This document shows positions 6,001-31,857 of a stretch of 64,000 nucleotides of DNA, in pieces. Position 1 is the stretch's first letter. The number at the start of each line of letters is the position of its first letter. The position numbers were made by a program, and so were the translations under genes. Source of the DNA: Eretmocerus hayati (lineage: Eukaryota > Arthropoda > Insecta > Hymenoptera > Aphelinidae); the NCBI GenBank assembly GCA_029851415.1, contig CM056744.1:71186172-71250171 (forward strand), read 5' to 3'. The notes under the pieces were generated by a model. It saw only the letters and a list, made by a program, of their open reading frames with translations. It searched no databases and was not told the DNA's origin.

Positions 6001-6815
6001 GTTGCGTGATTGACCGATCGAGATGAATACTACACGATCGGATTGGGATCGTGGGTGCATGGTCTCTATCCTCCTCGATACTCACAATCAGTATTGAACT
6101 CCTCTAGGTTTCATATATTCCAATTGGATTCAATACTGCTGAGCAAGATCGGAACGGCCTGGAGATGAGTTTCGCTATCGGTCTGAATCCTGCCAGGCAG
6201 CATTGAGGTGACTGCGTCAATCGATTTCGATGATGACCTCATCACTCATCGCGTGATTGACCAATCGAGATGAATGCTACAGAACCGGATTGGAAACGCG
6301 GGTGCAAGGATATTCACTCACTCTCAATACTCGCAATCAGTAAGAACTCCTCTAGATTCCATATATGTCAATCAAATCAAATACTTCCGAGCAGGATTGG
6401 AACGGCCTGAGGGTGAGTTTTGCTATCGGTCTGAATCCTGACAGGAGGCATTGAATTGACGGTGTGAATAGAATTCAATGATGACCCAAGCACTCGTTGC
6501 GTCATTGACCAATCGAGATGAATACTACAGGATCGGATTGGAATAGTGGGTGCATGGTTTCTATCTTCCTCAATACTCACAATCAGTATCGAACTCCTCT
6601 AGGTTTCATATATGTCATCAAATTCAATACTGCTGAGCAGGATTGGAACGGCCTGAAGATGCGTTTTGCTATCGGTCTGAATCCTGCCAGGCAGCATTGA
6701 ATTGACTGCGTCAATCGATGTCAATGTTGAACCAATCACTCCTTGCACGATTGACCAATCGAGATGAATAATTCAGAATCGAATTGGAATCGTGTGAGCG
6801 TGGTCATCCTATCCT
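1..6815. repeat. Satellite array, left part (~247-bp monomer, ~27 copies)
   Basis: Head-to-tail repeats of about 247 bp. The anchor CTGCTGAGCAGGATTGGAA or a close variant returns at about 182, 429, 676 and 926, and so on to the end of the block. Monomers differ by point changes and small indels, so this is an aged array. Some groups of four monomers are closer to each other (around 2661-3113 and 3728-4105, about 992 bp apart), showing local higher-order copying. Within a monomer, the segment around AATACTACAGGATCGGATTGG resembles the anchor segment, hinting at an older shorter unit. The 60-150-codon frames here are not genes. The array is interrupted at 6815 by an LTR element and resumes at 31862. 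Confidence 0.95.
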
Positions 6816-6819
6816 CCTT
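6816..6819. other. Left target-site duplication (CCTT) of the LTR element
   Basis: CCTT directly precedes the TG of the 5' LTR, and CCTT directly follows the CA of the 3' LTR at 31858-31861. Four bases is the usual duplication for insect mdg1/412-type Ty3/gypsy elements. Confidence 0.85.
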
Positions 6820-6837
6820 TGCAACGTGGACGTTGCA
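6820..6837. repeat. Palindrome at the LTR 5' terminus
   Basis: TGCAACGTGGACGTTGCA: two perfect 8-bp arms around GG, starting at the first base of the LTR. The copy in the 3' LTR is at 30437-30454. Confidence 0.85.
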
Positions 6838-6872
6838 GCATGCTTTTCGTCTCCTCTCGTTAAACCCTCGTG

Positions 6873-6945
6873 GTCACCTCGGGCAAAGTGAATCAAGGTC
6901 TGATTTTCGTGTGTTATACTTTTTTGTTGAGGTGCCCGAGGTGAC
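6873..6945 (+). promoter_or_regulatory. LTR stem-loop with 13-bp perfect stem
   Basis: The 13 bases at 6873-6885 (GTCACCTCGGGCA) are complementary to 6933-6945. Pyrimidine-rich DNA upstream (CGTCTCCTCTCGT) also resembles the complement of the DNA after 6945, so the fold may extend. The loop holds a TATA-like GTTATACTTTT. A role in transcription or RNA folding is inference. The 3' LTR has the same stem. Confidence 0.5.
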
Positions 6946-7340
6946 GAGAAGAAGACGACAACGACGTTTCAAACGGGCTGATGGCTCCCGCCACCAGCGT
7001 GGTGGCAGCACCTCCCAGCCCACCAAGCCGGGCGGCGCAGCGCTTGCGCGGGCTAGAGGAAGCCGCGCCGCGCATCGCCGGCCGGCAATCTTGGGATGGC
7101 TCCCGGCCTAGATAGACCTCCCTGTAGATCGTGCCCTTAAATTCGCCGCGTGCTCCAGGAGTAGCGACCTAGGACGGGTCCAGTGATCGCGCCGCGGGTG
7201 CACAAGACGTTTCGTGTGTGTGTGGGTGAACCCAGTGCTAGTGCCAAGACTTGCGTTAGCGTGTGCTGACGCGTGGCCACCACACACGACCACATCTCGC
7301 CCAGGGTACACAGCTTTTGGAGGGTGACCCGGACTGGGCT

Positions 7341-7412
7341 AGAGAGAGAGAGAGAGCTGCAGCAGCAGCGAAATCAAGCAGCCCCAGCAGCAGAGCAGCA
7401 ACAGCGCAGCAG
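7341..7412 (+). promoter_or_regulatory. (GA)n and CAG-rich tract in the LTR
   Basis: Sixteen bases of alternating AG followed by CAG/AGC-rich sequence. GA repeats bind GAGA-factor-type proteins in insect promoters (established); a promoter role here is only inferred from position inside the LTR. It is also present in the 3' LTR near 30958. Confidence 0.3.
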
Positions 7413-8171
7413 TAGCGCCATCGCAGTGAGCTTCCGGACGATCGACATAGACCTACGCGGTGAGTGGCATTACGTCTTCCCCAGGGTGCATCCGCCCTCA
7501 TCGTGAACCTCCCCGGGCGGAGAGTCGTGTCCAGGGCTACCGGGTGGCCTATTTCCCAGCTCGCGACGCGGTGTGTCCTTCTTGTCCGCCGACCCATTGC
7601 GTCGTAACCGTGTCCCTCCAACCCCCCGCGCCAATATTAGCATGCACGTTTTGGCCATGCTGGGCCACGCGGGTCGATGTAGCGGCCATTTTGCGTAATA
7701 ATTCTGACTTCCGGAGACGAAGGCGCGGAGAGTTGGAGAGGGACGGGCCCGCCGGCTGGGGAAATAGCTCCCCCCCCCCCTCGCGTTAGCTCCGCCCACA
7801 ATGTATATGGGTGATTCCGCCGAAACAGTGCAGTGAGTAATTTCGAGTCAATGTACGGGGGTGTTTCCGCTGTAAAGTGACTTTTTGATATTGTGATTTT
7901 CTGTGAATTATTGGACAAATGAACGATTTGATGACAGTTTTCGCCTTAGATGGCGTTGTGAGTAGGTTTATCGACCTGCGAGTCGGGAAATGCGATTTCT
8001 GAAAGCAATAAATCCGTTTATATTTTTCTGAACGACGAGAGTGATTATTTGTGTCGATCGAATTCTACCATCGTCCGCAGAATACATTCGCGTTTTTCAG
8101 GTGCTCCCAAGATGCCCCACTGTCCCGCCCCTCGTGGCGCGGGGTGCCTGGCCCTAACCCGATCCGGCCCA

Positions 8172-8177
8172 AATAAA
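8172..8177 (+). promoter_or_regulatory. AATAAA, candidate LTR polyadenylation signal (5' copy)
   Basis: AATAAA about 70 bp before the LTR end. A second AATAAA lies at 8007-8012. Which is used, and where R ends, cannot be read from the sequence. Confidence 0.4.
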
Positions 8178-8243
8178 TGAGTCGGCGTTGGGTGGGTTTA
8201 TCTTTTCAGGAAATTTCCCCCTGCTGATGCCCGCCACGTTACA

Positions 8244-8260: not shown

Positions 8261-8980
8261 TTTCGATGCAAGCCTATAACCTTCTGCAGCCTCTCGAATC
8301 CATACGCGATTTATTGTTATTCATCTATATATAATTGTAAATAGCTGAAAATCTTCGAATGAAATCGCACTGATTTTTCGCCGATTACGTGACTGAACCA
8401 CGCGATTCGATTTCTGCTAATTTGCTCGTTGCGATAAGCGTTGCGATTCATTTGTTCTATCGATTAAACCGGTAGAGGGCGTCTCCGAAATTCCGATTTC
8501 GTCTTGGGGGCAAAATGCTTCGGAGCTTCTGGGTTTTCGGACTATTTTCTGTAGAATCTGCACAACTCTCATCGGATAGATCAGCGGAACATGCTCTCAC
8601 ATCGCGAAGCAAGTGCGAGCAATGCATGAAATCGTAGGGCACTGTTCGACTCGCGCGGGATAACTCGAGGAGCTGAAGCGTTCCCATACCAAATGCGGAC
8701 ACCTGCGAAGGATACACGACTCTCCGTCCCCATCTGATTACATTGCATGCCATTTCAAGAATAGTAGTGTGAATAGAGGAGGAAGGGGACTCGCACATCC
8801 TTATCCTTGCCCAATTTCCCAGAATTTTCCGTCGAGGATTCAAAACCTCAACAAGGAGTCCGCCGAGACAATCGTCTCATCAGGGTCCGCCAGTGGGTTT
8901 GGGGGTCCGCCTATCTCATCGAGAGAGTAACTACCCTAATTATCCCGTGGCAAGTTGAACGTCACCGCGTAGGCATCAAG
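8261..8980 (+). other. Leader between primer site and first ORF
   Basis: About 720 bp with no supported gene. The frame of the downstream ORF stays open back to about 8807, but it has no ATG before 8981. A minus-strand frame across 8457-8843 has no recognisable content. Several TCCGCC hexamers occur near 8858-8912. Confidence 0.6.
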
Positions 8981-10693
8981 ATGTTCGGTAGAAAACCAAC
9001 AACGTCGATCCCATCGGGAGATCGACATGAGAGAATGACGATTACGCCGGATGTTGCTGGAATACTCGGCAAGGATCCGCGATATGTAGAGGCAGCCAAG
9101 CTGGTTGCGAGTCACGATTATAAAGAGGTTATGGTTCGATTGAATGAGGCTGGTCTCAGTCTAGGCGGCACACGTAATGCTCTACGCGTACGTTTGCTCC
9201 GCAACAATCTTTTGACCATAAACCCAAAGGAAGATGTACGATGGAACCCAGAGATTGACGAGCGTTCGAAGGAACACCCACCCCTCTCACCAGCTGCTTT
9301 ACAGGTAATGGCAGATATAGAGGGCGTGGAGATCGGGAGTGAAAATGGATCCGAAGTCGAGTACGAGTATGTTGTGGATGATCCGCCGGTGGTGACTTCG
9401 TCAACCAGGGTAACACAGAGTGGAATTGTGACCACTGTGGCCAACCCGTGCTCAATGATAACCGTCACGAGCTTGCATGGACCCATAGCAACTCGAGATC
9501 CCGTTCTGCTATCTGGCTATACGAATTTGCCTACCGCAGCTGAGTCTTTCCGCCAGATAGGCCACAATGCAACTTTCGCCGGGTGGGCCAACACCATGTT
9601 GCCTAACCCAGCCGATGCAGTTATCGGTCCGCCTCAGACTGATGCTACTAGGCGAATAGGTGGAAGAGGTTTGAGTTTCGAAGAAACTTGGTCTCGGTTG
9701 CAAGATCGACTGATCAGTTGCGAGATTGGAAACAAGAACAGCGATGAGCAAGTACTATTGAATTGTTGTGATAGTCCGAAGTCTGTTGAATTGACTGAAT
9801 CGGGAGTACGATCTACGCCTGTTAGCCGAAGCTGGGAAGATGAAAGCCAGATTGAAAACGCTAGAACATTGAACCCATCACGAGGAATTAATGAGATAGA
9901 GGTCCACCAAAGGAACGCCGAGAAGACTCATCATGATGGCCGAGGACAACCACAGACGATCCTGCTGCAGAAACAGCATGCACAACTGCTGTCTCGTATT
10001 GGCAAAGAAAGGTCTGTAGATGTTCCCACGCGTCTCACGAGTCGCTGCCAGTCGCACCATTCGTCGCATCAGGCGAGTGATTGGCTCTCGGAATCGCCAA
10101 GCCGTGACGAGACGAAGCCAAGGGTGTTAGATACACACCTCCCTGCTCTGAACGCCTCATCACAGCCCGCATCAGAGAAGAGACAGGTGGAACATGGAGA
10201 ATCAGTCGACAACCTCAAACTGAGTCAACCCATGGCTGAGTTGGTATCGAGGAATTATAGGTATTTGGAGTTGGCGGAGCGAGTATGCCGCTTACCCTTC
10301 AACGAAGTAAAACGCCTCCTGTGCCACCGTAAACTCAACACTATGGGAAGTATCAGTACATTGAGAAGCAGACTGATTCGAGCGGATATATTGTGGATGA
10401 ATCCGAATGAAGAAGTCCCGTGGAATGCGAAGATGGATGGACCCTTGCAAAAGTGCTCATCTTGGTTCTCTATGAAACAAAGCCAGCCATTTTTTGTGGA
10501 CGAGCCACGCCAGAGAACGGAGATTATCTCGCCAACCGTCCGAGTTTCCATCACCGCGGTAATGCAAACTACGCCAACGGTGGCAACTGCGGTAATAGGT
10601 CCTGTGACAGTTGAGACTTTCAGTATCTCCCAAGCTGTGGTATCTCCGGTAGAGGTGTCCAGTCTCGAGAGATTGATGAGAGTCCTAATGTGA
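8981..10693 (+). CDS. Gag-like protein with two SAP-like repeats (LTR element ORF)
   Basis: A 570-residue ORF, the only sizeable one in the LTR element. The ATG at 8981 is chosen because the open frame upstream contains no ATG and this one has A at -3; the ATG at 9035 is an alternative. Residues ~35-93 and ~428-486 are diverged copies of one ~59-residue unit: a helix, a SAP-like core (V..L...GL...G....LR.RL and V.RLL...L...G....LR.RL) and a tail NP.E.V.WN...D. SAP modules bind nucleic acid. Between the copies lies ~330 residues of polar, low-complexity sequence rich in Ser, Gln, His and Arg. There is no zinc knuckle, protease or polymerase motif. By position it corresponds to gag, so a structural RNA-binding role is plausible but inferred. 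No full-length homologue was recognised. Confidence 0.7.
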   Translation: MFGRKPTTSIPSGDRHERMTITPDVAGILGKDPRYVEAAKLVASHDYKEVMVRLNEAGLSLGGTRNALRVRLLRNNLLTINPKEDVRWNPEIDERSKEHPPLSPAALQVMADIEGVEIGSENGSEVEYEYVVDDPPVVTSSTRVTQSGIVTTVANPCSMITVTSLHGPIATRDPVLLSGYTNLPTAAESFRQIGHNATFAGWANTMLPNPADAVIGPPQTDATRRIGGRGLSFEETWSRLQDRLISCEIGNKNSDEQVLLNCCDSPKSVELTESGVRSTPVSRSWEDESQIENARTLNPSRGINEIEVHQRNAEKTHHDGRGQPQTILLQKQHAQLLSRIGKERSVDVPTRLTSRCQSHHSSHQASDWLSESPSRDETKPRVLDTHLPALNASSQPASEKRQVEHGESVDNLKLSQPMAELVSRNYRYLELAERVCRLPFNEVKRLLCHRKLNTMGSISTLRSRLIRADILWMNPNEEVPWNAKMDGPLQKCSSWFSMKQSQPFFVDEPRQRTEIISPTVRVSITAVMQTTPTVATAVIGPVTVETFSISQAVVSPVEVSSLERLMRVLM

Positions 10694-14182: not shown

Positions 14183-14187
14183 CGCCG
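14183..14187. other. Left 5-bp target-site duplication (CGCCG) of the DNA transposon
   Basis: CGCCG immediately precedes CACAGTG; CGCCG immediately follows the inverted CACTGTG at 30040-30044. Five-base GC-rich duplications are characteristic of Transib and of RAG-mediated transposition. Confidence 0.9.
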
Positions 14188-14226
14188 CACAGTGGGGCGA
14201 AACATGCATTTTGCGGCACAAATCGT
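14188..14226 (+). other. Left terminal RSS-like signal (heptamer, 23-bp spacer, nonamer-like)
   Basis: CACAGTG at 14188-14194 equals the canonical RAG heptamer. After exactly 23 bp comes ACAAATCGT at 14218-14226, which agrees with the nonamer consensus ACAAAAACC at its first five positions only. The heptamer match is strong; the nonamer is suggestive. Confidence 0.75.
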
Positions 14227-14605
14227 ATCCACGCGAATTTTTGACCGATTGGATCGATCCAAAACGGATTTTCTTCGTTTTTTCATTCTCCACCTCAAGG
14301 CACTGCAACAATTTTGGAAATAATCGTTCTTGGATCTATAGAGCGTATGGGATGTTGAACTCGATCCGAGAGGAGAATACTACACATTCCTACTTACTAG
14401 GCATATGATTTTTGGCTCAAAACCATCCGAACTGACCTATATGGTCTTCGGGATGTGTATACAACCCTTTACCACTTTCCTGGGTTATTTATTCGTCTAT
14501 GATACGTTGCAAACGCCCAAAATTGGTCAGACTTGCAACTCACTCGGGATAGATGCTTTCTCGACCTCTTTGTTGGACAATTGGTGACTTCGAGACTGCA
14601 GAACG

Positions 14606-17600
14606 ACTTGCGGAAGCTAGAGAGCACTGCAAGGACCATCTAGAACGTTCTACCAACCAAATGCCACGTTGCGCGAGTCAAGAAATTGACGCTGGAACTT
14701 TTTACGATACTTTTTCGCTCGGAATCACTCGCGAATGGTGGAAAACTTCACGAAATCAGGAAATCCCGGTGTGTATTTGAACTTGCGGAAGCTCAGAAAT
14801 ACTGCGAGGACCATCTCATATGTCCTAGTTATCGAATGCCTCAAACTAGAGGTGAAAAAAATGCCGCTGGAATGATTTAAGACTCTGAATCCGACGAGAT
14901 TCGCTCGCGAATGGGGGGAGAACCCCTGAAACCATGTATTCTAGGTGCCCATACAAACTTGCGGAAACTGAAAAGCACTGCGAATATCATCTACAATGAT
15001 CCATCAATCGAATGCCCAAAGGTAGGGGTTATGAAATTGACGCTGGGATTTTTTATGAACCCTCTTTTGCAGGGGATCACTCACAAATGGTCGAAAAATC
15101 CTCAAAAACACGAATCCAGGCGTCTAAACAGACTTGCGGAAGCTAGAAAGCATTGCGAGGACCATCTAGAACGATCCACCAACCAAATGCCACGTTGCGC
15201 GAGTCAAGAAATTGACGCTGGAACTTTTTACGATACTTTTTCGCTCGGAATCACTCGCGAATGGTAGAAAACTTCACGAAATCAGGAAATCCCGGTGTGT
15301 ATTTGAACTTGCGGAAGCTCAGAAATACTGCGAGGACCATCTCATATGTCCTAGTTATCGAATGCCTCAAACTAGAGGTGAAAAAAATGCCGCTGGAATG
15401 ATTTAAGACTCTGAATCCGACGAGATTCGCTCGCGAATGGGGGGAGAACCCCTGAAACCATGTATTCTAGGTGCCCATACAAACTTGCGGAAACTGAAAA
15501 GCACTGCGAATATCATCTACAATGATCCATCAATCGAATGCCCAAAGGTAGGGGTTATGAAATTGACGCTGGGATTTTTTATGAACCCTCTTTTGCAGGG
15601 GATCACTCACAAATGGTCGAAAAATCCTCAAAAACACGAATCCAGGCGTCTAAACAGACTTGCGGAAGCTAGAAAGCATTGCGAGGACCATCTAGAACGA
15701 TCCACCAACCAAATGCCACGTTGCGCGAGTCAAGAAATTGACGCTGGAACTTTTCACGATACTTTTTCGCTCGGAATCACTCGCGGATGGTCGAGAACCT
15801 CAGTGAATCATGAAATCCCAGTGTGTATTTGAACTTGCGGAAGCTCGGAAATACCGCGAGGACCATCTCATATGTCCTAGTTATCGAATGCCTCAAACTA
15901 GAGGTGAAAAAAATGCCGCTGGAATGATTTAAGACTCTGAATCCGACGAGATTCGCTCGCGAATGGGGGGAGAACCCCTGAAACCATGTATTCTAGGTGC
16001 CCATACAAACTTGCGGAAACTGAAAAGCACTGCGAATATCATCTACAATGATCCATCAATCGAATGCCCAAAGGTAGGGGTTATGAAATTGACGCTGGGA
16101 TTTTTTATGAACCCTCTTTTGCAGGGGATCACTCACAAATGGTCGAAAAATCCTCAAAAACACGAATCCAGGCGTCTAAACAGACTTGCGGAAGCTAGAA
16201 AGCATTGCGAGGACCATCTAGAACGATCCACCAACCAAATGCCACGTTGCGCGAGTCAAGAAATTGACGCTGGAACTTTTTACGATACTTTTTCGCTCGG
16301 AATCACTCGCGGATGGTCGAGAACCTCAGTGAATCATGAAATCCCAGTGTGTATTTGAACTTGCGGAAGCTCGGAAATACCGCGAGGACCATCTCATATG
16401 TCCTAGTTATCAAATGCCTCAAACTAGAGGTGGAAAAAATGCCGCTGGAATGATTTAAGACTCTGAATCCGACGAGATTCGCTCGCGAATGGGGGGAGAA
16501 CCCCTGAAACCATGTATTCTAGGTGCCCATACAAACTTGCGGAAACTGAAAAGCACTGCGAATATCATCTTTAATGATCCATCAATCGAATGCCCAAAGG
16601 TAGGGGTTATGAAATTGACGCTGGGATTTTTTATGAACCCTCTTTTGCAGGGGATCACTCACAAATGGTCGAAAAATCCTCAAAAACACGAATCCAGGCG
16701 TCTCAACAGACTTGCGGAAGCTAGAAAGCATTGCGAGGACCATCTAGAACGATCCACCAACCAAATGCCACGTTGCGCGAGTCAAGAAATTGACGCTGGA
16801 ACTTTTTACGATACTTTTTCGCTCGGAATCACTCGCGGATGGTCGAGAACCTCAGTGAATCATGAAATCCCAGTGTGTATTTGAACTTGCGGAAGCTCGG
16901 AAATACCGCGAGGACCATCTCATATGTCCTAGTTATCAAATGCCTCAAACTAGAGGTGGAAAAAATGCCGCTGGAATGATTTAACACTCTGAATCCGACG
17001 AGATTCGCTCGCGAATGGGGGGAGAACCCCTGAAACCATGTATTCTAGGTGCCCATACAAACTTGCGGAAACTGAAAAGCACTGCGAATATCATCTACAA
17101 TGATCCATCAATCGAATGCCCAAAGGTAGGGGTTATGAAATTGACGCTGGGATTTTTTATGAACCCTCTTTTGCAGGGGATCACTCACAAATGGTCGAAA
17201 AATCCTCAAAAACACGAATCCAGGCGTCTCAACAGACTTGCGGAAGCTAGAAAGCATTGCGAGGACCATCTAGAACGATCCGGCAACCAAATGCCACGTT
17301 GCGCGAGTCAAGAAATTGACGCTGGAACTTTTTACGATACTTTTTCGCTCGGAATCTCTCGCGGATGGTCGAGAACCTCAGTGAATCATGAAATCCCAGT
17401 GTGTATTTGAACTTGCGGAAGCTCGGAAATACCGCGAGGACCATCTCATATGTCCTAGTTATCAAATGCCTCAAACTAGAGGTGGAAAAAATGCCGCTGG
17501 AATGATTTAAGACTCTGAATCCGACGAGATTCGCTCGCGGATGGGGGGAGAACCCCTGAAACCATGTATTCTAGGTGCCCATACAAACTTGCGGAAACTG

Positions 17601-19770
17601 AGAAGCACTGCGAATATCATCTACAATGATCCATCAATCGAATGCCCAAAGGTAGGGGTTATGAAATTGACGCTGGGATTTTTTATGAACCCTCTTTTGC
17701 AGGGGATCACTTACAAATGGTCGAAAAATCCTCAAAAACACGAATCCAGGCGTCTCAACAGACTTGCGGAAGCTAGAAAGCATTGCGAGGACCATCTAGA
17801 ACGATCCACCAACCAAATGCCACGTTGCGCGAGTCAAGAAATTGACGCTGGAACTTTTTACGATACTTTTTCGCTCGGAATCACTCGCGGATGGTCGAGA
17901 ACCTCAGTGAATCATGAAATCCCAGTGTGTATTTGAACTTGCGGAAGCTCGGAAATACCGCGAGGACCATCTCATATGTCCTAGTTATCAAATGCCTCAA
18001 ACTAGAGGTGGAAAAAATGCCGCTGGAATGATTTAACACTCTGAATCCGACGAGATTCGCTCGCGAATGGGGGGAGAACCCCTGAAACCATGTATTCTAG
18101 GTGCCCATACAAACTTGCGGAAACTGAAAAGCACTGCGAATATCATCTACAATGATCCATCAATCGAATGCCCAAAGGTAGGGGTTATGAAATTGACGCT
18201 GGGATTTTTTATGAACCCTCTTTTGCAGGGGATCACTCACAAATGGTCGAAAAATCCTCAAAAACACGAATCCAGGCGTCTCAACAGACTTGCGGAAGCT
18301 AGAAAGCATTGCGAGGACCATCTAGAACGATCCACCAACCAAATGCCACGTTGCGCGAGTCAAGAAATTGACGCTGGAACTTTTTACGATACTTTTTCGC
18401 TCGGAATCACTCGCGGATGGTCGAGAACCTCAGTGAATCATGAAATCCCAGTGTGTATTTGAACTTGCGGAAGCTCGGAAATACCGCGAGGACCATCTCA
18501 TATGTCCTAGTTATCAAATGCCTCGAACTAGAGGTGGAAAAAATGCCGCTGGAATGATTTAACACTCTGAATCCGACGAGATTCGCTCGCGAATGGGGGG
18601 AGAACCCCTGAAACCATGTATTCTAGGTGCCCATACAAACTTGCGGAAACTGAAAAGCACTGCGAATATCATCTACAATGATCCATCAATCGAATGCCCA
18701 AAGGTAGGGGTTATGAAATTGACGCTGGGATTTTTTATGAACCCTCTTTTGCAGGGGATCACTCACAAATGGTCGAAAAATCCTCAAAAACACGAATCCA
18801 GGCGTCTCAACAGACTTGCGGAAGCTAGAAAGCATTGCGAGGACCATCTAGAACGATCCACCAACCAAATGCCACGTTGCGCGAGTCAAGAAATTGACGC
18901 TGGAACTTTTTACGATACTTTTTCGCTCGGAATCACTCGCGGATGGTCGAGAACCTCAGTGAATCATGAAATCCCAGTGTGTATTTGAACTTGCGGAAGC
19001 TCGGAAATACCGCGAGGACCATCTCATATGTCCTAGTTATCAAATGCCTCAAACTAGAGGTGGAAAAAATGCCGCTGGAATGATTTAAGACTCTGAATCC
19101 GACGAGATTCGCTCGCGAATGGGGGGAGAACCCCTGAAACCATGTATTCTAGGTGCCCATACAAACTTGCGGAAACTGAAAAGCACTGCGAATATCATCT
19201 ACAATGATCCATCAATCGAATGCCCAAAGGTAGGGGTTATGAAATTGACGCTGGGATTCTTTATGAACCCTCTTTTGCAGGGGATCACTCACAAATGGTC
19301 GAAAAATCCTCAAAAACACGAATCCAGGCGTCTCAACAGACTTGCGGAAGCTAGAAAGCATTGCGAGGACCATCTAGAACGATCCACCAACCAAATGCCA
19401 CGTTGCGCGAGTCAAGAAATTGACGCTGGAACTTTTTACGATACTTTTTCGCTCGGAATCACTCGCGGATGGTCGAGAACCTCAGTGAATCATGAAATCC
19501 CAGTGTGTATTTGAACTTGCGGAAGCTCGGAAATACCGCGAGGACCATCTCATATGTCCTAGTTATCAAATGCCCCAAACTAGAGGTGGAAAAAATGCCG
19601 CTGGAATGATTTAAGACTCTGAATCCGACGAGATTCGCTCGCGAATGGGGGGAGAACCCCTGAAACCATGTATTCTAGGTGCCCATACAAACTTCCGGAA
19701 ACTGAAAAGCACTGCGAATATCATCTACAATGATCCATCAATCGAATGCCCAAAGGTAGGGGTTATGAAA
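14606..19770 (+). repeat. 526-bp tandem array, left (9.8 units; trimer of ~175-bp subunits)
   Basis: Units recur at exactly 526 bp (14606, 15132, ... 19340). Each is three related subunits: A starting ACTTGCGGAAGCTAGAAAGC, B starting ACTTGCGGAAGCTCGGAAAT and C starting ACTTGCGGAAACTGAAAAGC, with lengths 175, 176 and 175. Subunits are clearly diverged from each other, whereas 526-bp units are nearly identical, so homogenisation acts on the trimer. A 131-codon frame recurs in most units, but the A and C subunits are read in different frames, so it does not descend from a repeated protein domain. Confidence 0.95.
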
Positions 19771-19804
19771 TGTCTCGAAGCAGCCCCTTGATTCATCGCT
19801 GTTC

Positions 19805-20887
19805 ATGATCAGTATGGTGCCGTTGATGTTAGTTGCAGAAGACGATGAGATCGTATGGGAGAATCCGACGCCATCGTCCGTGAAATTTTGCCGACCAATA
19901 CAGTTCGAATTCGTGAAGGAAACTGCTGCAAACACAACAAAAGAATACGAATATTATAAGTCCAAAATTGACAATTTGCAGCCATGTATAATGGAAAAAC
20001 TCGGATCGGAGTTTAGAATCTACTACGAATGTCAATGCACCATGATCGATGGCAAGACTTGTAATGTCCTCACAGGACAAAAATGCTGCAACAATTGCAA
20101 TCTATGCAATGCCAAGCCGAGTCAGTCGAACAATGCGAATTTTGTGCCAGATATCCCAGTGAATGAGGAGTTTTATGCTTTTGGCATGTCTCCGTTGCAT
20201 TGCAGGATAAGGTTCTTGGAGCACTTGTTCCACGTGGCATGCAATATGGACTTCCAGCAGCACAAGGCCCAAGGTGAAGTATTGCAAGTCGTAAGAACCG
20301 CTCGGAAGTATATGCTACAGTCAAGTATCAAGAAACATCTCAAAGGTTTGACAATCGATGTCGTGAAAACCGGATACGGCACCTCTAACGATGGTAACAC
20401 TTCTCGGAGATTCTTTGAGAACCCACAAGAAACTGCAAGGGTACTTGGAATCAATGAGCGTTTGGTGGAAATGTACAAGGTATTCCTTGAGGCAATCAAT
20501 TGCACGAAACAGATTGATCCGGTCAAGATGAAGAAATTCTCTGAGGAAGTAATGGCTTTGTACGTATCGGAATATAGTTGGTACCCGATGCCTCCATCTG
20601 TTCACAAAGCTTTCATGCATGGATGCCAGATTGTCGAAAGAACCTCGGTACCAGTGGGAACTCTGAGCGAAGAGGCACAAGAAGCCACTAATAAAGTGGT
20701 GAAACGGGCTCGTTTGGAAAACAGTAGATGCTGTGACAGGCAATCTTCTAACGAAGACGTGCTCCACTATCTACTGTTCGCTTCGGATCCATTGATCTCG
20801 AGTCTGAGGGTAGGAGGAGAAAAGACCACCAAAGAGCTCTCACCTGAAGCACAAAGTCTCATGGTAGATTTCCAGGAGGCTGCGTGA
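19805..20887 (+). CDS. RAG1/Transib-like transposase, 5'-truncated (C-terminal catalytic part)
   Basis: 360 residues from the first ATG; the frame is open back to 19769, and residues upstream of that ATG (DSSLF) still look like family sequence, so the true protein was longer. Against vertebrate RAG1 (known: catalytic D600, D708, E962; zinc C727, C730, H937, H942) I align D82 in MIDGK with D708, C98/C101 in CNLC with the CxxC, H267/H272 in HKAFMH with H937/H942, and E293 in EATNK with E962. Further shared blocks are a W/F-E-x-P-x-P-x-S...C-R/K-P segment (residues 18-31), LHC (131-133) and E-DVL...SDP (317-329). The D600 counterpart should lie about 10-25 codons before the array junction and is missing. 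It also resembles an uncharacterised arthropod/cnidarian family with GTTNDGNTARR-like motifs (here residues 192-202), from recollection. Probably inactive alone unless an upstream exon exists. Confidence 0.85.
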   Translation: MISMVPLMLVAEDDEIVWENPTPSSVKFCRPIQFEFVKETAANTTKEYEYYKSKIDNLQPCIMEKLGSEFRIYYECQCTMIDGKTCNVLTGQKCCNNCNLCNAKPSQSNNANFVPDIPVNEEFYAFGMSPLHCRIRFLEHLFHVACNMDFQQHKAQGEVLQVVRTARKYMLQSSIKKHLKGLTIDVVKTGYGTSNDGNTSRRFFENPQETARVLGINERLVEMYKVFLEAINCTKQIDPVKMKKFSEEVMALYVSEYSWYPMPPSVHKAFMHGCQIVERTSVPVGTLSEEAQEATNKVVKRARLENSRCCDRQSSNEDVLHYLLFASDPLISSLRVGGEKTTKELSPEAQSLMVDFQEAA

Positions 20888-23110
20888 GAAGTACAAGCTG
20901 AACTTGTGAGTTTAGATCTATCGAAGTTTGGAATGGGTTATTTCAATTTTCCTTGACGATCATATTTTTGTTGTAGCAGTTATGAAGACTTTTCTTCTCC
21001 TCACTATGATCTAATATTCCTCACAAAGATTGTGCCGGAGAAGTTCCCTCTGTTTTTCTGTTTGATAGAACAGCTCGAGTTTCCTTCACAGGTTCACATG
21101 GTGCAGATAGTTCATTTCTGTCAGTTTCCATCGATCACTTGTACGTTCATGCGTTGCATGATATTTTGTACGCCTTTTGTGTGATAATCTTCTTTTTTGC
21201 GATTTCGTGCTCAGCGTTGTGCGCAAATCCAACTTCTCTTCATTGTCAGCAGTGTGTGAAGAAAAACGGAAAAAACTTCACGCTCAGTTTTACATTGACG
21301 CACCGATAAACTGTGCGTGAAATTGATTTCTGACACAGATTCCAATGCGTAAATGTAAAATCACGCACAAGTCACTCGGCATATCTGTGAGATGTGTGAC
21401 GATCTTGAAAATGTTTCTCAAATCATGAGACTAAACGTTCCAAAATGTCCCACGCACGCGTGGGTGAGCATACAGTCGAACCTATACATGTATACCTGCT
21501 CGTATGGGATTAACTATCTTTTGGGTAATCATTTGATGATCCAGGATTAATTTCTCTCTTGTTGACAGGAATTAATAATTCATCCACATTGAATGAGTAT
21601 AACTATACTTAATTTGGTTGTAACATTCTTGAATTTCACTATCTAGTCCAGAAATTGTTGTATTTTCCAAAGAATATTTTGATTTTTTTGTAAATATTAT
21701 GTGGAATCATACAAAATACTGTATTAACACGCCGTCTGGGCGAGTTCAACAGAGACAATGTTAGTAACAGTCGTGGATTTCGTTCTATATTGAGTTAGTT
21801 AGTCATTCTGATTAGTTCTCATCACCGTCTGATCACATTCTTTTCATAAGAATGTTCATGATAAAGATGACTGATGAGTTGATACTCCATTTGAATGTTC
21901 AACAAGATTCTCAGTTTTGTGAAACCGAGGAAAAACTCTGAATCTATTTTCGAATAATCGGTTATTGGTTTAATAAGCCAAGCTCTAATCTTGTTTACAG
22001 TCATTTGAATCTTGTAAATAAATCATTGAACTTACCAAAAATCTGGCTTATCTGTATCCGAGACTTGTTATTTGATAAATCACCGAAAACTATTAATTAT
22101 TGGGAATGATCTTATTTCAAATATCTAATTGATCTGTACAACCTTAAATTTTTGATTATTCAGAAATCAACAATAGTTAGAATTTTGCAGAGACTACAAA
22201 AATTTTATGAGAAGAGAACTTTTTTGAAACATTTCGAGAATTTATTATCGCTTCGCTTCCCGTGCGTAAATGTGTACTTTTGGGCGTGCGTGAAATTCAA
22301 TAGCTGTACGTGGATTTCACTCCTCATACTCGATCGGCAACTTGTGCGGAAATCACCCTTCTTGCACCCGTTGTGTAATGTACTATTTTCTCGTTCGGAA
22401 GGTGATCACAATGATGTCACTCAACGATTTGATAACATAATCATAGGGAGAACCGTCGATTAATATCGTGAATAAATCGAATTTTTGAACGTCCGAACGT
22501 TTCGACTGAACAATTGTCACGGACAATATCGATGTTGCTTGAGCAGACTCTTGGTTTGTTAATCGCGGGATACTTAATCATCCTTGTATAGTCCTGCTCT
22601 ATGCTGATTCTGGAATATTGAATCCTTAGCCGAGTGTATGAAGTTGTTCAACGGGAGAGGAGTTTCTCGGGAATTCCAGTTAAAAGTTTGATGAGAGATA
22701 TTTTTTGTACTGTAATCGTTGTATGAAATGTGTCCATACGGAGACTCTGTACAAATGGAGTCGATAGAAGATGGGTTTTCCTCAGCCATTCCTGAAGGAG
22801 AATCTCGTCCTCAGGCGAGGAAAAAATTGATTTCAACGAATTTGTTTGAACATTCATTTTTGTATTAAATTGATTATTCCGATGTTAAGGATGTCTTGTG
22901 GCTCTTTTAAATGAACACGATCACATTCTTCTCATCGAATCAGGATATGTAAATTAACGTTGCGCGACTCTTTCATCCGGAGAGCGGATTTTGGTCCCCT
23001 GGCCAATTTCGATCTAGGAGTCATGTCGGAGTCGAATGATAGTTATTCATCACTTCATGTACGATATTCCGACCCGAGAATCGGCCAACGAGATGATGCG
23101 CTGGTCAACG
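20888..23110 (+). other. Transposon centre downstream of the ORF, no gene recognised
   Basis: About 2.2 kb, AT-rich, with only short frames on either strand and no RAG2-like or other recognisable protein. It contains two clusters of related short motifs: GTGCGTGAAATT near 21309 and 22283, TGCGTAAATGT near 21346 and 22264, and further CGCAC/GTGCG words. AATAAA occurs near 22018 and could end the ORF transcript. The last ~170 bp before the right array (22940-23110) are less AT-rich and unmatched elsewhere in the window. Confidence 0.6.
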
Positions 23111-26100
23111 TGGTATTTCCGAGCTTCCGCAAGTTCAAATACACACTGGGATTTCATGATTCACTGAGGTTCTCGACCATCCGCGAGTGATTCCGAGCGA
23201 AAAAGTATCGTAAAAAGTTCCAGCGTCAATTTCTTGACTCGCGCAACGTGGCATTTGGTTGGTGGATCGTTCTAGATGGTCCTCGCAATGCTTTCTAGCT
23301 TCCGCAAGTCTGTTGAGACGCCTGGATTCGTGTTTTTGAGGATTTTTCGACCATTTGTGAGTGATCCCCTGCAAAAGAGGGTTCATAAAAAATCCCAGCG
23401 TCAATTTCATAACCCCTACCTTTGGGCATTCGATTGATGGATCATTGTAGATGATATTTGCAGTGCTTTTCAGTTTCCGCAAGTTTGTATGGGCACCTAG
23501 AATACATGGTTTCAGGGGTTCTCCCCCCATTCGCGAGCGAATCTCGTCGGATTCAGAGTGTTAAATCATTCCAGCGGCATTTTTTCCACCTCTAGTTTGA
23601 GGCATTTGATAACTAGGACATATGAGATGGTCCTCGCGGTATTTCCGAGCTTCCGCAAGTTCAAATACACACTGGGATTTCATGATTCACTGAGGTTCTC
23701 GACCATCCGCGAGTGATTCCGAGCGAAAAAGTATCGTAAAAAGTTCCAGCGTCAATTTCTTGACTCGCGCAACGTGGCATTTGGTTGGTGGATCGTTCTA
23801 GATGGTCCTCGCAATGCTTTCTAGCTTCCGCAAGTCTGTTGAGACGCCTGGATTCGTGTTTTTGAGGATTTTTCGACCATTTGTGAGTGATCCCCTGCAA
23901 AAGAGGGTTCATAAAAAATCCCAGCGTCAATTTCATAACCCCTACCTTTGGGCATTCGATTGATGGATCATTGTAGATGATATTCGCAGTGCTTTTCAGT
24001 TTCCGCAAGTTTGTATGGGCACCTAGAATACATGGTTTCAGGGGTTCTCCCCCCATTCGCGAGCGAATCTCGTCGGATTCAGAGTGTTAAATCATTCCAG
24101 CGGCATTTTTTCCACCTCTAGTTTGAGGCATTTGATAACTAGGACATATGAGATGGTCCTCGCGGTATTTCCGAGCTTCCGCAAGTTCAAATACACACTG
24201 GGATTTCATGATTCACTGAGGTTCTCGACCATCCGCGAGTGATTCCGAGCGAAAAAGTATCGTAAAAAGTTCCAGCGTCAATTTCTTGACTCGCGCAACG
24301 TGGCATTTGGTTGGTGGATCGTTCTAGATGGTCCTCGCAATGCTTTCTAGCTTCCGCAAGTCTGTTGAGACGCCTGGATTCGTGTTTTTGAGGATTTTTC
24401 GACCATTTGTGAGTGATCCCCTGCAAAAGAGGGTTCATAAAAAATCCCAGCGTCAATTTCATAACCCCTACCTTTGGGCATTCGATTGATGGATCATTGT
24501 AGATGATATTCGCAGTGCTTCTCAGTTTCCGCAAGTTTGTATGGGCACCTAGAATACATGGTTTCAGGGGTTCTCCCCCCATCCGCGAGCGAATCTCGTC
24601 GGATTCAGAGTCTTAAATCATTCCAGCGGCATTTTTTCCACCTCTAGTTTGAGGCATTTGATAACTAGGACATATGAGATGGTCCTCGCGGTATTTCCGA
24701 GCTTCCGCAAGTTCAAATACACACTGGGATTTCATGATTCACTGAGGTTCTCGACCATCCGCGAGTGATTCCGAGCGAAAAAGTATCGTAAAAAGTTCCA
24801 GCGTCAATTTCTTGACTCGCGCAACGTGGCATTTGGTTGGTGGATCGTTCTAGATGGTCCTCGCAGTGCTTTCTAGCTTCCGCAAGTCTGTTTAGACGCC
24901 TGGATTCGTGTTTTTGAGGATTTTTCGACCATTTGTGAGTGATCCCCTGCAAAAGAGGGTTCATAAAAAATCCCAGCGTCAATTTCATAACCCCTACCTT
25001 TGGGCATTCGATTGATGGATCATTGTAGATGATATTCGCAGTGCTTTTCAGTTTCCGCAAGTTTGTATGGGCACCTAGAATACATGGTTTCAGGGGTTCT
25101 CCCCCCATTCGCGAGCGAATCTCGTCGGATTCAGAGTCTTAAATCATTCCAGCGGCATTTTTTCCACCTCTAGTTTGAGGCATTTGATAACTAGGACATA
25201 TGAGATGGTCCTCGCGGTATTTCCGAGCTTCCGCAAGTTCAAATACACACTGGGATTTCATGATTCACTGAGGTTCTCGACCATCCGCGAGTGATTCCGA
25301 GCGAAAAAGTATCGTGAAAAGTTCCAGCGTCAATTTCTTGACTCGCGCAACGTGGCATTTGGTTGGTGGATCGTTCTAGATGGTCCTCGCAATGCTTTCT
25401 AGCTTCCGCAAGTCTGTTTAGACGCCTGGATTCGTGTTTTTGAGGATTTTTCGACCATTTGTGAGTGATCCCCTGCAAAAGAGGGTTCATAAAAAATCCC
25501 AGCGTCAATTTCATAACCCCTACCTTTGGGCATTCGATTGATGGATCATTGTAGATGATATTCGCAGTGCTTTTCAGTTTCCGCAAGTTTGTATGGGCAC
25601 CTAGAATACATGGTTTCAGGGGTTCTCCCCCCATTCGCGAGCGAATCTCGTCGGATTCAGAGTCTTAAATCATTCCAGCGGCATTTTTTTCACCTCTAGT
25701 TTGAGGCATTCGATAACTAGGACATATGAGATGGTCCTCGCAGTATTTCTGAGCTTCCGCAAGTTCAAATACACACCGGGATTTCCTGATTTCGTGAAGT
25801 TTTCTACCATTCGCGAGTGATTCCGAGCGAAAAAGTATCGTAAAAAGTTCCAGCGTCAATTTCTTGACTCGCGCAACGTGGCATTTGGTTGGTGGATCGT
25901 TCTAGATGGTCCTCGCAATGCTTTCTAGCTTCCGCAAGTCTGTTTAGACGCCTGGATTCGTGTTTTTGAGGATTTTTCGACCATTTGTGAGTGATCCCCT
26001 GCAAAAGAGGGTTCATAAAAAATCCCAGCGTCAATTTCATAACCCGTACCTTTGGGCATTCGATTGATGGATCATTGTAGATGATATTCGCAGTGCTTTT

Positions 26101-29100
26101 CAGTTTCCGCAAGTTTGTATGGGCACCTAGAATACATGGTTTCAGCGGTTCTCCCCCCATTCGCGAGCGAATCTCGTCGGATTCAGAGTCTTAAATCATT
26201 CCAGCGGCATTTTTTCCACCTCTAGTTTGAGGCATTTGATAACTAGGACATATGAGATGGTCCTCGCGGTATTTCCGAGCTTCCGCAAGTTCAAATACAC
26301 ACTGGGATTTCATGATTCACTGAGGTTCTCGACCATCCGCGAGTGATTCCGAGCGAAAAAGTATCGTAAAAAGTTCCAGCGTCAATTTCTTGACTCGCGC
26401 AACGTGGCATTTGGTTGGTGGATCGTTCTAGATGGTCCTCGCAGTGCTTTCTAGCTTCCGCAAGTCTGTTTAGACGCCTGGATTCGTGTTTTTGAGGATT
26501 TTTCGACCATTTGTGAGTGATCCCCTGCAAAAGAGGGTTCATAAAAAATCCCAGCGTCAATTTCATAACCCCTACCTTTGGGCATTCGATTGATGGATCA
26601 TTGTAGATGATATTCGCAGTGCTTTTCAGTTTCCGCAAGTTTGTATGGGCACCTAGAATACATGGTTTCAGGGGTTCTCCCCCCATTCGCGAGCGAATCT
26701 CGTCGGATTCAGAGTCTTAAATCATTCCAGCGGCATTTTTTCCACCTCTAGTTTGAGGCATTTGATAACTAGGACATATGAGATGGTCCTCGCGGTATTT
26801 CCGAGCTTCCGCAAGTTCAAATACACACTGGGATTTCATGATTCACTGAGGTTCTCGACCATCCGCGAGTGATTCCGAGCGAAAAAGTATCGTGAAAAGT
26901 TCCAGCGTCAATTTCTTGACTCGCGCAACGTGGCATTTGGTTGGTGGATCGTTCTAGATGGTCCTCGCAGTGCTTTCTAGCTTCCGCAAGTCTGTTTAGA
27001 CGCCTGGATTCGTGTTTTTGAGGATTTTTCGACCATTTGTGAGTGATCCCCTGCAAAAGAGGGTTCATAAAAAATCCCAGCGTCAATTTCATAACCCCTA
27101 CCTTTGGGCATTCGATTGATGGATCATTGTAGATGATATTCGCAGTGCTTTTCAGTTTCCGCAAGTTTGTATGGGCACCTAGAATACATGGTTTCAGGGG
27201 TTCTCCCCCCATTCGCGAGCGAATCTCGTCGGATTCAGAGTGTTAAATCATTCCAGCGGCATTTTTTCCACCTCTAGTTTGAGGCATTTGATAACTAGGA
27301 CATATGAGATGGTCCTCGCGGTATTTCCGAGCTTCCGCAAGTTCAAATACACACTGGGATTTCATGATTCACTGAGGTTCTCGACCATCCGCGAGTGATT
27401 CCGAGCGAAAAAGTATCGTAAAAAGTTCCAGCGTCAATTTCTTGACTCGCGCAACGTGGCATTTGGTTGGTGGATCGTTCTAGATGGTCCTCGCAATGCT
27501 TTCTAGCTTCCGCAAGTCTGTTGAGACGCCTGGATTCGTGTTTTTGAGGATTTTTCGACCATTTGTGAGTGATCCCCTGCAAAAGAGGGTTCATAAAAAA
27601 TCCCAGCGTCAATTTCATAACCCCTACCTTTGGGCATTCGATTGATGGATCATTGTAGATGATATTCGCAGTGCTTCTCAGTTTCCGCAAGTTTGTATGG
27701 GCACCTAGAATACATGGTTTCAGGGGTTCTCCCCCCATCCGCGAGCGAATCTCGTCGGATTCAGAGTCTTAAATCATTCCAGCGGCATTTTTTCCACCTC
27801 TAGTTTGAGGCATTTGATAACTAGGACATATGAGATGGTCCTCGCGGTATTTCCGAGCTTCCGCAAGTTCAAATACACACTGGGATTTCATGATTCACTG
27901 AGGTTCTCGACCATCCGCGAGTGATTCCGAGCGAAAAAGTATCGTAAAAAGTTCCAGCGTCAATTTCTTGACTCGCGCAACGTGGCATTTGGTTGGTGGA
28001 TCGTTCTAGATGGTCCTCGCAGTGCTTTCTAGCTTCCGCAAGTCTGTTTAGACGCCTGGATTCGTGTTTTTGAGGATTTTTCGACCATTTGTGAGTGATC
28101 CCCTGCAAAAGAGGGTTCATAAAAAATCCCAGCGTCAATTTCATAACCCCTACCTTTGGGCATTCGATTGATGGATCATTGTAGATGATATTCGCAGTGC
28201 TTTTCAGTTTCCGCAAGTTTGTATGGGCACCTAGAATACATGGTTTCAGGGGTTCTCCCCCCATTCGCGAGCGAATCTCGTCGGATTCAGAGTCTTAAAT
28301 CATTCCAGCGGCATTTTTTCCACCTCTAGTTTGAGGCATTTGATAACTAGGACATATGAGATGGTCCTCGCGGTATTTCCGAGCTTCCGCAAGTTCAAAT
28401 ACACACTGGGATTTCATGATTCACTGAGGTTCTCGACCATCCGCGAGTGATTCCGAGCGAAAAAGTATCGTGAAAAGTTCCAGCGTCAATTTCTTGACTC
28501 GCGCAACGTGGCATTTGGTTGGTGGATCGTTCTAGATGGTCCTCGCAATGCTTTCTAGCTTCCGCAAGTCTGTTTAGACGCCTGGATTCGTGTTTTTGAG
28601 GATTTTTCGACCATTTGTGAGTGATCCCCTGCAAAAGAGGGTTCATAAAAAATCCCAGCGTCAATTTCATAACCCCTACCTTTGGGCATTCGATTGATGG
28701 ATCATTGTAGATGATATTCGCAGTGCTTTTCAGTTTCCGCAAGTTTGTATGGGCACCTAGAATACATGGTTTCAGGGGTTCTCCCCCCATTCGCGAGCGA
28801 ATCTCGTCGGATTCAGAGTCTTAAATCATTCCAGCGGCATTTTTTTCACCTCTAGTTTGAGGCATTCGATAACTAGGACATATGAGATGGTCCTCGCAGT
28901 ATTTCTGAGCTTCCGCAAGTTCAAATACACACCGGGATTTCCTGATTTCGTGAAGTTTTCTACCATTCGCGAGTGATTCCGAGCGAAAAAGTATCGTAAA
29001 AAGTTCCAGCGTCAATTTCTTGACTCGCGCAACGTGGCATTTGGTTGGTGGATCGTTCTAGATGGTCCTCGCAATGCTTTCTAGCTTCCGCAAGTCTGTT

Positions 29101-29621
29101 TAGACGCCTGGATTCGTGTTTTTGAGGATTTTTCGACCATTTGTGAGTGATCCCCTGCAAAAGAGGGTTCATAAAAAATCCCAGCGTCAATTTCATAACC
29201 CGTACCTTTGGGCATTCGATTGATGGATCATTGTAGATGATATTCGCAGTGCTTTTCAGTTTCCGCAAGTTTGTATGGGCACCTAGAATACATGGTTTCA
29301 GCGGTTCTCCCCCCATTCGCGAGCGAATCTCGTCGGATTCAGAGTCTTAAATCATTCCAGCGGCATTTTTTCCACCTCTAGTTTGAGGCATTCGATAACT
29401 AGGACATATGAGATGGTCCTCGCAGTATTTCTGAGCTTCCGCAAGTTCAAATACACACCGGGATTTCCTGATTTCGTGAAGTTTTCCACCATTCGCGAGT
29501 GATTCCGAGCGAAAAAGTATCGTAAAAAGTTCCAGCGTCAATTTCTTGACTCGCGCAACGTGGCATTTGGTTGGTAGAACGTTCTAGATGGTCCTTGCAG
29601 TGCTCTCTAGCTTCCGCAAGT
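23111..29621 (-). repeat. 526-bp tandem array, right (12.4 units, inverted)
   Basis: Same trimeric unit as the left array, read on the minus strand, at exact 526-bp spacing (29621, 29095, ... 23309). Twelve complete units are followed by one A subunit and 24 bp of B. It is longer than the left array by about 2.6 units. Confidence 0.95.
23854..29450 (-). repeat. Six-unit (3156-bp) duplication inside the right array
   Basis: Rare variants recur at an offset of 3156 bp (6 x 526): CCCGTACC and TTCAGCGGTTC near 29200-29300 and 26044-26145; the outer-type B subunit near 28921 and 25765; and a C-subunit variant near 27676 and 24520. Matching blocks are roughly 27010-29450 and 23854-26294; bounds are approximate. 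Confidence 0.75.
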
Positions 29622-30000
29622 CGTTCTGCAGTCTCGAAGTCACCAATTGTCCAACAAAGAGGTCGAGAAAGCATCTATCCCGAGTGAGTTGCAAGTCTGA
29701 CCAATTTTGGGCGTTTGCAACGTATCATAGACGAATAAATAACCCAGGAAAGTGGTAAAGGGTTGTATACACATCCCGAAGACCATATAGGTCAGTTCGG
29801 ATGGTTTTGAGCCAAAAATCATATGCCTAGTAAGTAGGAATGTGTAGTATTCTCCTCTCGGATCGAGTTCAACATCCCATACGCTCTATAGATCCAAGAA
29901 CGATTATTTCCAAAATTGTTGCAGTGCCTTGAGGTGGAGAATGAAAAAACGAAGAAAATCCGTTTTGGATCGATCCAATCGGTCAAAAATTCGCGTGGAT

Positions 30001-30039
30001 ACGATTTGTGCCGCAAAATGCATGTTTCGCCCCACTGTG
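30001..30039 (-). other. Right terminal RSS-like signal (inverted)
   Basis: Exact reverse complement of 14188-14226: ACGATTTGT at 30001-30009, 23 bp, CACTGTG at 30033-30039. Both ends therefore have the same 23-bp spacing rather than a 12/23 pair. Confidence 0.75.
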
Positions 30040-30044
30040 CGCCG
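30040..30044. other. Right 5-bp target-site duplication (CGCCG)
   Basis: Direct copy of 14183-14187, adjoining the inverted CACTGTG end. Joining the flanks restores an uninterrupted LTR-element sequence with one CGCCG. Confidence 0.9.
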
Positions 30045-30436: not shown

Positions 30437-31857
30437 TGCAACGTGGACGTTGCAGCACGCTTTTCGTCTCCTCTCGTTAAACCCTCGTCGTCACCTCGGG
30501 CAAAGTGAATCAAGGTCTGATTTTCGTGTGTTATACTTTTTTGTTGAGGTGCCCGAGGTGACGAGAAGAAGATGACAACGACGTTTCAAACGGGCTGATG
30601 GCTCCCGCCACCAGCGTGGTGGCAGCACCTTCCAGCCCACCAAGCCGGGCGGCGCAGCGCTTGCGCGGGCTAGAGGAAGCCGCGCCGCGCATCGCCGGCC
30701 GGCAATCTTGGGATGGCTGCCGGCCTAGATAGACCTCCCTGTAGATCGTGCCCTTAAATTCGCCGCGTGCTCCAGGAGTAGCGACCTAGGACGGGTCCAG
30801 TGATCACGCCGCGGGTGCACAAGACGTTTCGTGTGTGTGTGGGTGAACCCAATGCTGGTGCCAAGACTTGCGTTAGCGTGTGCTGACGCGTGGCCACCAC
30901 ACACGACCACATCTCGCCCAGGGTACACAGCTTTTGGAGGGTGACCCGGACTGGGCTAGAGAGAGAGAGAGAGCTGCAGCAGCAGCGAAATCAAGCAGCC
31001 CCAGCAGCAGAGCAGCAACAGCGCAGCAGAAGCGCCATCGCAGTGAGCTTCCGGACGATCGACATAGACCTACGCGGTGAGTGGCATTACGTCTTCCCCA
31101 GGGTGCATCCGCCCTCATCGTGAACCTCCCCGGGCGGAGAGTCGTGTCCAGGGCTACCGGGTGGCCTATTTCCCAGCTCGCGACGCGGTGTGTCCTTCTT
31201 GTCCGCCGACCCATCGCGTCGTAACCGTGTCCCTCCAACCCCCCGCGCCAATATTAGCATGCACGTTTTGGCCATGCTGGGCCACGCGGGTCGATGTAGC
31301 GGCCATTTTGCGTAATAATTCTGACTTCCGGAGACGAAGGCGCGGAGAGTTGGAGAGGGACGGGCCCGCCGGCTGGGGAAATAGCTCCCCCCCCTCGCGT
31401 AAGCTCCGCCCTCAATGTATATGGGTGATTCCGCCGAAACAGTGCAGTGAGTAATTTCGAGTCAATGTACGGGGGTGTTTCCGCTGTAAAGTGACTTTTT
31501 GATATTCTGATTTTCTGTGAATTATTGGACAAATGAACGATTTGATGACAGTTTTTGCCACAGATGGCGTTGTGAGTAGGTTTATCGACCTGCGAGTCGG
31601 AAAATGCGATTTCTGAAAGCAATAAATCCGTTTATATTTTTGAGAACGACGAGAGTGATTATTTGTGTCGATCGAATTCTACCAGTGTCCGCAGAATACA
31701 TTCGCGTTTTTCAGGTGCTCCCAAGATGCCCCACTGTCCCGCCCCTCGTGGCGCGGGGTGCCTGGCCCTAACCCGATCCGGCCCAAATAAATGAGGTGGC
31801 GTTGGGTGGGTTTATCTTTTCAGGAAATTTCCCCCTGCTGATGCCCGCCACGTTACA
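30437..31857 (+). repeat. 3' LTR (1421 bp)
   Basis: Direct repeat of 6820-8243 with about 23 substitutions. The same TGCAACGTGG start, palindrome, stem-loop, (GA)n/CAG tract and CCACGTTACA end are present. The C run near 31386 is shorter than in the 5' LTR. Confidence 0.95.
31786..31791 (+). promoter_or_regulatory. AATAAA, candidate polyadenylation signal (3' LTR)
   Basis: AATAAA about 66 bp before the LTR end, the copy that would serve element transcripts. Another AATAAA is at 31621-31626. Confidence 0.45.

Follow-up and report, generated by a model that had tools for sequence, protein, structure and literature searches.

Nested arrangement of the locus

The window, i.e. the whole 64-kb stretch of DNA that was analysed, contains a transposon that lies in an LTR retroelement, which itself lies in satellite DNA, so that the transposon is the innermost of three layers. 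Satellite arrays fill positions 23–6818 and 31863–63997; their unit measures 247–249 bp, the double unit 496 bp, and units match each other at 81–83%. The features between the arrays are as follows:

6820–8243, plus strand: 5' LTR of the retroelement hosting the transposon
14183–14187, plus strand: left target-site duplication (TSD), CGCCG
14188–30039: whole transposon, 15,852 bp, defined by its ends and TSD
14188–14604, plus strand: left unique tip, 417 bp, starting with CACAGTG
14605–19771, plus strand: left array, nine full 526-bp units and 433 bp
19769–20884, plus strand: truncated Transib transposase open reading frame (ORF), 372 codons, matching HzTransib
20885–23101, no strand assigned: rest of the core, A+T-rich, without recognisable coding match in six frames
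23102–29622, minus strand: right array, inverted, 12 full 526-bp units and about 209 bp
29623–30039, minus strand: right unique tip, 417 bp, with CACTGTG at its end
30040–30044, plus strand: right TSD, CGCCG
30437–31857, plus strand: 3' LTR of the same host retroelement

The two LTRs of the retroelement are about 1.4 kb long and 98.2% alike; their alignment holds 23 substitutions over 1,421 positions, plus three gap columns. Both start with TG, end with CA and are accompanied by CCTT flanks on either side of the retroelement. A primer-binding-like TGGCGATCCTGCCAGGA follows the first LTR and a purine-rich run is located before the second. After subtraction of the transposon and one TSD copy the retroelement (6820–31857) measures 9,181 bp. 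It holds a single long ORF (8777–10690, 638 aa), which did not reach any Pfam cut-off (best AA_kinase, 15.1 versus 24.9 bits) and whose only pattern match in the contig scan was not confirmed as a relative. No pol was found among the scanned ORFs of the retroelement, which is therefore perhaps non-autonomous itself. By eye, two similar stretches can be seen in the 638-aa product, 'RYVEAAKLV...' (9080 onward, codon 102) and 'RYLELAERV...' (10259 onward, codon 495); a BLASTP self-comparison did not report this pair.

The transposon opens with CACAGTG at 14188 and closes with CACTGTG at 30033–30039, and the heptamer does not occur again inside the element on either strand. CGCCG directly flanks both ends as a perfect 5-bp TSD. 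Inverted CACAGTG ends and perfect CGCCG flanks had been proposed in the initial annotation and were found exactly there. Inverted termini that start with CAC and resemble recombination signal sequences (RSS), as well as a 5-bp TSD, are characters of the Transib superfamily, and Transib elements favor G+C-rich targets such as CGCCG. Within the tip (14188–14226) CACAGTG, which is the V(D)J heptamer, is followed by 23 bp and then by ACAAATCGT, a loosely nonamer-like stretch at the 23-bp distance. It agrees with the RSS nonamer at five of nine positions, a weak match that may be due to chance.

Between these ends the left arm extends over 5,584 bp, the right arm over 6,938 bp and the core over 3,330 bp, so that the arms account for 79.0% of the element. 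Together they comprise about 22.2 units of 526 bp, and the earlier estimate of arms of 5.6 and 6.9 kb, about 79% of the element and 22 units is thus confirmed. The left and right tips are identical over all 417 bp. When the arms are aligned from the outside, 49 mismatches are found in 5,584 positions (99.1% alike in register), the first one at position 668, and beyond the tips the inverted match is already broken at the third base. Ends, TSD and inverted arms are far beyond chance. Inverted arms of such length, filled with tandem repeats and enclosing a smaller core, correspond to the layout of a foldback element.

Composition of the arm arrays

The left array consists of nine full units and one of 433 bp, the right array of 12 full units and a partial one of 209–215 bp, depending on the choice of the inner border. 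Each 526-bp unit falls into three subunits (175, 176 and 175 bp) that have diverged from one another, with pairwise identities of 113/180, 126/181 and 110/179 columns. Among the 21 full units only 34 of the 526 columns are variable. The tip-proximal units represent types of their own: L1 and R1 differ at three positions and L2 equals R2. Units without any difference are L2, R2 and R8, R3 and R9, R4 and R10, as well as L5, L7 and R11. In the right arm the block R2–R4 is thus identical to R8–R10, and a single base separates R5 from R11, suggesting a recent block duplication at a spacing of six units. The edges of this duplication are not clean, with 16 differences between R1 and R7 and five between R6 and R12.

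We permuted the order of the left units and compared them in register with the right arm. With all nine units, 4,368 of 362,880 orders do as well as the observed one (0.012); without units 1 and 2 the number is 2,184 of 5,040 (0.43). Likeness by position is therefore present only near the tips. Copying between the arms beyond the tips is weakly supported, and copying of the arms unit by unit was set aside on this weak support.

The source of the 526-bp unit was approached by local alignment with three pieces from the first 380 of the 417 bp of the tip, each best score being set against 200 letter shuffles. The scores were reached by 111, 130 and 119 of the 200 shuffles, and an array made of tip repeats, the arrangement of Tetris, was rejected. 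The array was also rejected as former transposase coding DNA, since a PDB search with the tip and two units, translated in the three plus-strand frames, found nothing at E ≤ 10. Within the 64-kb window neither the unit nor the tip is matched at E ≤ 1e-3 anywhere else, and exact tip and satellite words did not occur in the viral contigs.

Alternatively, the arms may come from a satellite of the host that was trapped between the ends of an ordinary short Transib derivative, instead of being an outgrowth of the element's subterminal DNA; this origin is less likely and is compatible with our main reading of the element given below. The organization of the unit as a three-part higher-order repeat is satellite-like, and the similarity between unit and tip is not significant. 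On the other hand no match to the unit was seen in the window beyond the element itself, despite the satellites that surround it.

The transposase reading frame

The ORF at 19769–20884 matches residues 124–461 of the HzTransib chain 6pqn with an E-value of 2.4e-81 and 277 bits, 148 of 337 aligned residues (44%) being identical. The best RAG1 chain reaches an E-value of 0.0015 and the RAG1L chain 0.0024; RAG1L and RAG1 chains score 20–21 bits, RAG1 chains at most 21.1 bits. In a tblastn search of the window with the printed part of HzTransib, 19790–20809 was retrieved with an E-value of 1.5e-82, besides one match at chance level (E 7.3). The protein is thus homologous to Transib and distinct from RAG1 and RAG1L. 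A RAG1-like identity was rejected, as HzTransib scores far higher and the Pfam RAG1 family stays below its cut-off (19.3 versus 25 bits). The initial annotation had described the transposon as RAG1/Transib-type; protein, ends and TSD bear out the Transib part, and RAG1 applies only in the wide sense (277 versus at most 21.1 bits). Relatives of the ORF were not confirmed for any of four pattern matches in viral contigs or 17 in genome contigs.

The catalytic triad of HzTransib is given as D126, D225 and E436 in the available text of the review PMC6941560. An offset of 17 places these residues at chain positions 109, 208 and 419, and D94 and E305 of the ORF align with HzTransib D225 (chain D208) and E436 (chain E419). 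C110 and C113 of the ORF align with chain C224 and C227, and H279 and H284 with chain H392 and H397; from the anatomy of RAG1 we take these four residues to be zinc ligands. The match to HzTransib starts only at chain position 124, 15 residues past the first catalytic Asp, so that the N-terminus and the first D are absent from the ORF. Of the zinc and catalytic residues of RAG1 type that had been claimed, the Cys and His pairs of the zinc site are present, together with two of the three catalytic residues. The complete DDE triad of an autonomous Transib was not found, the first D being missing. Because both the N-terminus and this residue are missing, the copy is very probably non-autonomous and unable to make active transposase.

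The start of the ORF coincides with the end of the left array. A TGA at 19766–19768, still in the array and within six bases of its end at 19771, shuts the frame. The first in-frame ATG is codon 13, and homology to HzTransib begins at most eight codons from the array border. Judged by base composition, a fixed frame would stay open over 372 codons with a probability of 1.3e-10; the open frame fits a recent truncation but also a retained function.

An autonomous giant Transib, in which an N-terminal exon located in the left arm or tip is spliced across the array to the C-terminal ORF, would account for the long open frame with its conserved zinc ligands, D and E, and AG dinucleotides at about 19779–19783 could serve as acceptors. 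We consider this improbable: the tip and the two translated units gave no PDB match at the threshold above, although a Transib N-terminus is perhaps too diverged for such a one-sequence search, and those two differ little from the remaining units. Moreover the TGA closes the frame, and at most eight codons lie between the array border and the start of homology.

In the rest of the core (20885–23101) six-frame searches yielded no Transib or RAG match in PDB, unrelated matches having E-values of 0.18 or worse, and Pfam likewise gave no family up to E 1. On these searches a second gene in the core was rejected, and a RAG2-like convergent gene of the ProtoRAG type was not found in the six frames of this region. 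Assignment of a short core ORF to TMEM132_C was rejected as chance level (E 0.51). Rfam gave no match at gathering score in the window.

Proposed origin and related elements

The 15.9-kb element is real and represents a Transib with foldback architecture. In our view it likely derives from the Transib superfamily as a foldback-type, non-autonomous element, which was moved in trans and whose arms grew by unequal exchange and inter-arm repair. A full-length Transib transposase encoded elsewhere in the genome would recognize the CACAGTG tips, cut via nick and hairpin, and insert the element into the LTR retroelement, thereby making the 5-bp duplication. The arms would have been extended from a shorter element by tandem duplication of the 526-bp unit and unequal exchange, and the inverted arms would have been kept alike through exchange or gap repair after excision. 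The transposase gene probably had its 5' portion replaced during an arm extension or a repair of this kind. That the insertion is genuine while array length or arm symmetry are artefacts of repeats collapsed or expanded during assembly is very unlikely. Near-identical 526-bp units are hard to assemble and the R2–R4 and R8–R10 blocks are identical, but the arms are unequal in length with 49 in-register differences, the two arrays break off inward at unlike points of the unit (433 versus about 209 bp) and the inverted likeness stops at the tips.

HzTransib from Helicoverpa zea is described in the available text of PMC1852546 as an element of 3,518 bp with the TSD GCTCG, long terminal inverted repeats (TIRs) and a 489-aa product. 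The element studied here is alike in its transposase (148/337 over chain 124–461), the 5-bp TSD and long TIRs. It differs from the roughly 3.5 kb and 489-aa product of HzTransib in its length of 15.9 kb, its arms made of tandem arrays and the loss of the N-terminus and first D. The previous statement that known Transib elements span a few kilobases with short terminal repeats is right for HzTransib as to length, yet the TIRs of HzTransib are described as long.

Foldback elements of other families share the design of the arms. For Galileo, a member of the P superfamily in Drosophila, the available text of PMC3573991 reports long TIRs with internal tandem repeats whose number is unequal between the TIRs, copies with the longest TIRs lacking a transposase ORF, 7-bp flanking duplications and TIR lengths between 18 and about 1,264 bp. 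Long tandem-repeat arms, unequal repeat numbers and loss of transposase are found in our element as well; Galileo differs in its P-superfamily transposase, its 7-bp duplications and its TIRs of at most about 1,264 bp versus 5.6–6.9 kb here. Tetris from Drosophila virilis, alongside which Tm1 is mentioned, is composed of a unique outer domain followed by tandem repeats of about 220 bp, is non-autonomous and is tied to satellite formation (PMC4079207, available text). The same source gives a TSD of 8–10 bp and no conserved ORF, suggests membership in Mutator, and proposes that foldbacks arise independently from different lineages. A unique outer domain followed by tandem repeats and non-autonomy are shared with the 15.9-kb element, whereas the TSD (8–10 versus 5 bp), the suggested Mutator membership and the lack of a conserved ORF set Tetris apart. 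ProtoRAG and RAG-like transposons have CAC-starting ends, a 5-bp TSD, a RAG1-family protein and a RAG1L and RAG2L pair according to the available text of PMC7204232. The first three characters are present here; in contrast to elements with the RAG1L and RAG2L pair, the protein is far closer to Transib (277 versus 20–21 bits for RAG1L and RAG1 chains) and no second gene was found.

The architecture had been put forward as a class not yet described. This does not apply to foldback arms of tandem repeats as such, which are described for Galileo and Tetris; for Transib we found none. In the open-licence PubMed Central text accessible to the search no passage with 'Transib' or 'foldback' links both, a result from which other wording would escape, and in wider searches, as far as titles and abstract starts go, there was none among the matches listed. 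In the retrievable parts of three papers both words occur separately: PMC9659126 has Transib in a reference title only and uses foldback for Tetris, and in PMC3930673 and PMC4862133 Transib is a table row and foldback belongs to a reference title on Galileo. Arms of foldback design occur in other transposon families; for Transib they may not have been recorded before.

The whole reading is drawn from one element copy, and one truncated copy does not yet show a family. We only tentatively suggest that the host harbors a foldback Transib family with inherited kilobase-long satellite-like arms, which could provide extra DNA for transposase binding or pairing, and through which a transposase of the RAG superfamily would spread higher-order satellite arrays. 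Should further copies bear this out, the foldback layout would have emerged in the RAG/Transib superfamily as well, following P and Mutator-type elements, and its arms would exceed the cited Galileo TIRs several-fold in length. Cut-and-paste transposition of the RAG type with its hairpin breaks would then be tied to long palindromes and the birth of satellites, and the element would offer a natural substrate for the cargo limit of the transposase and for the repair of inverted arms after excision.
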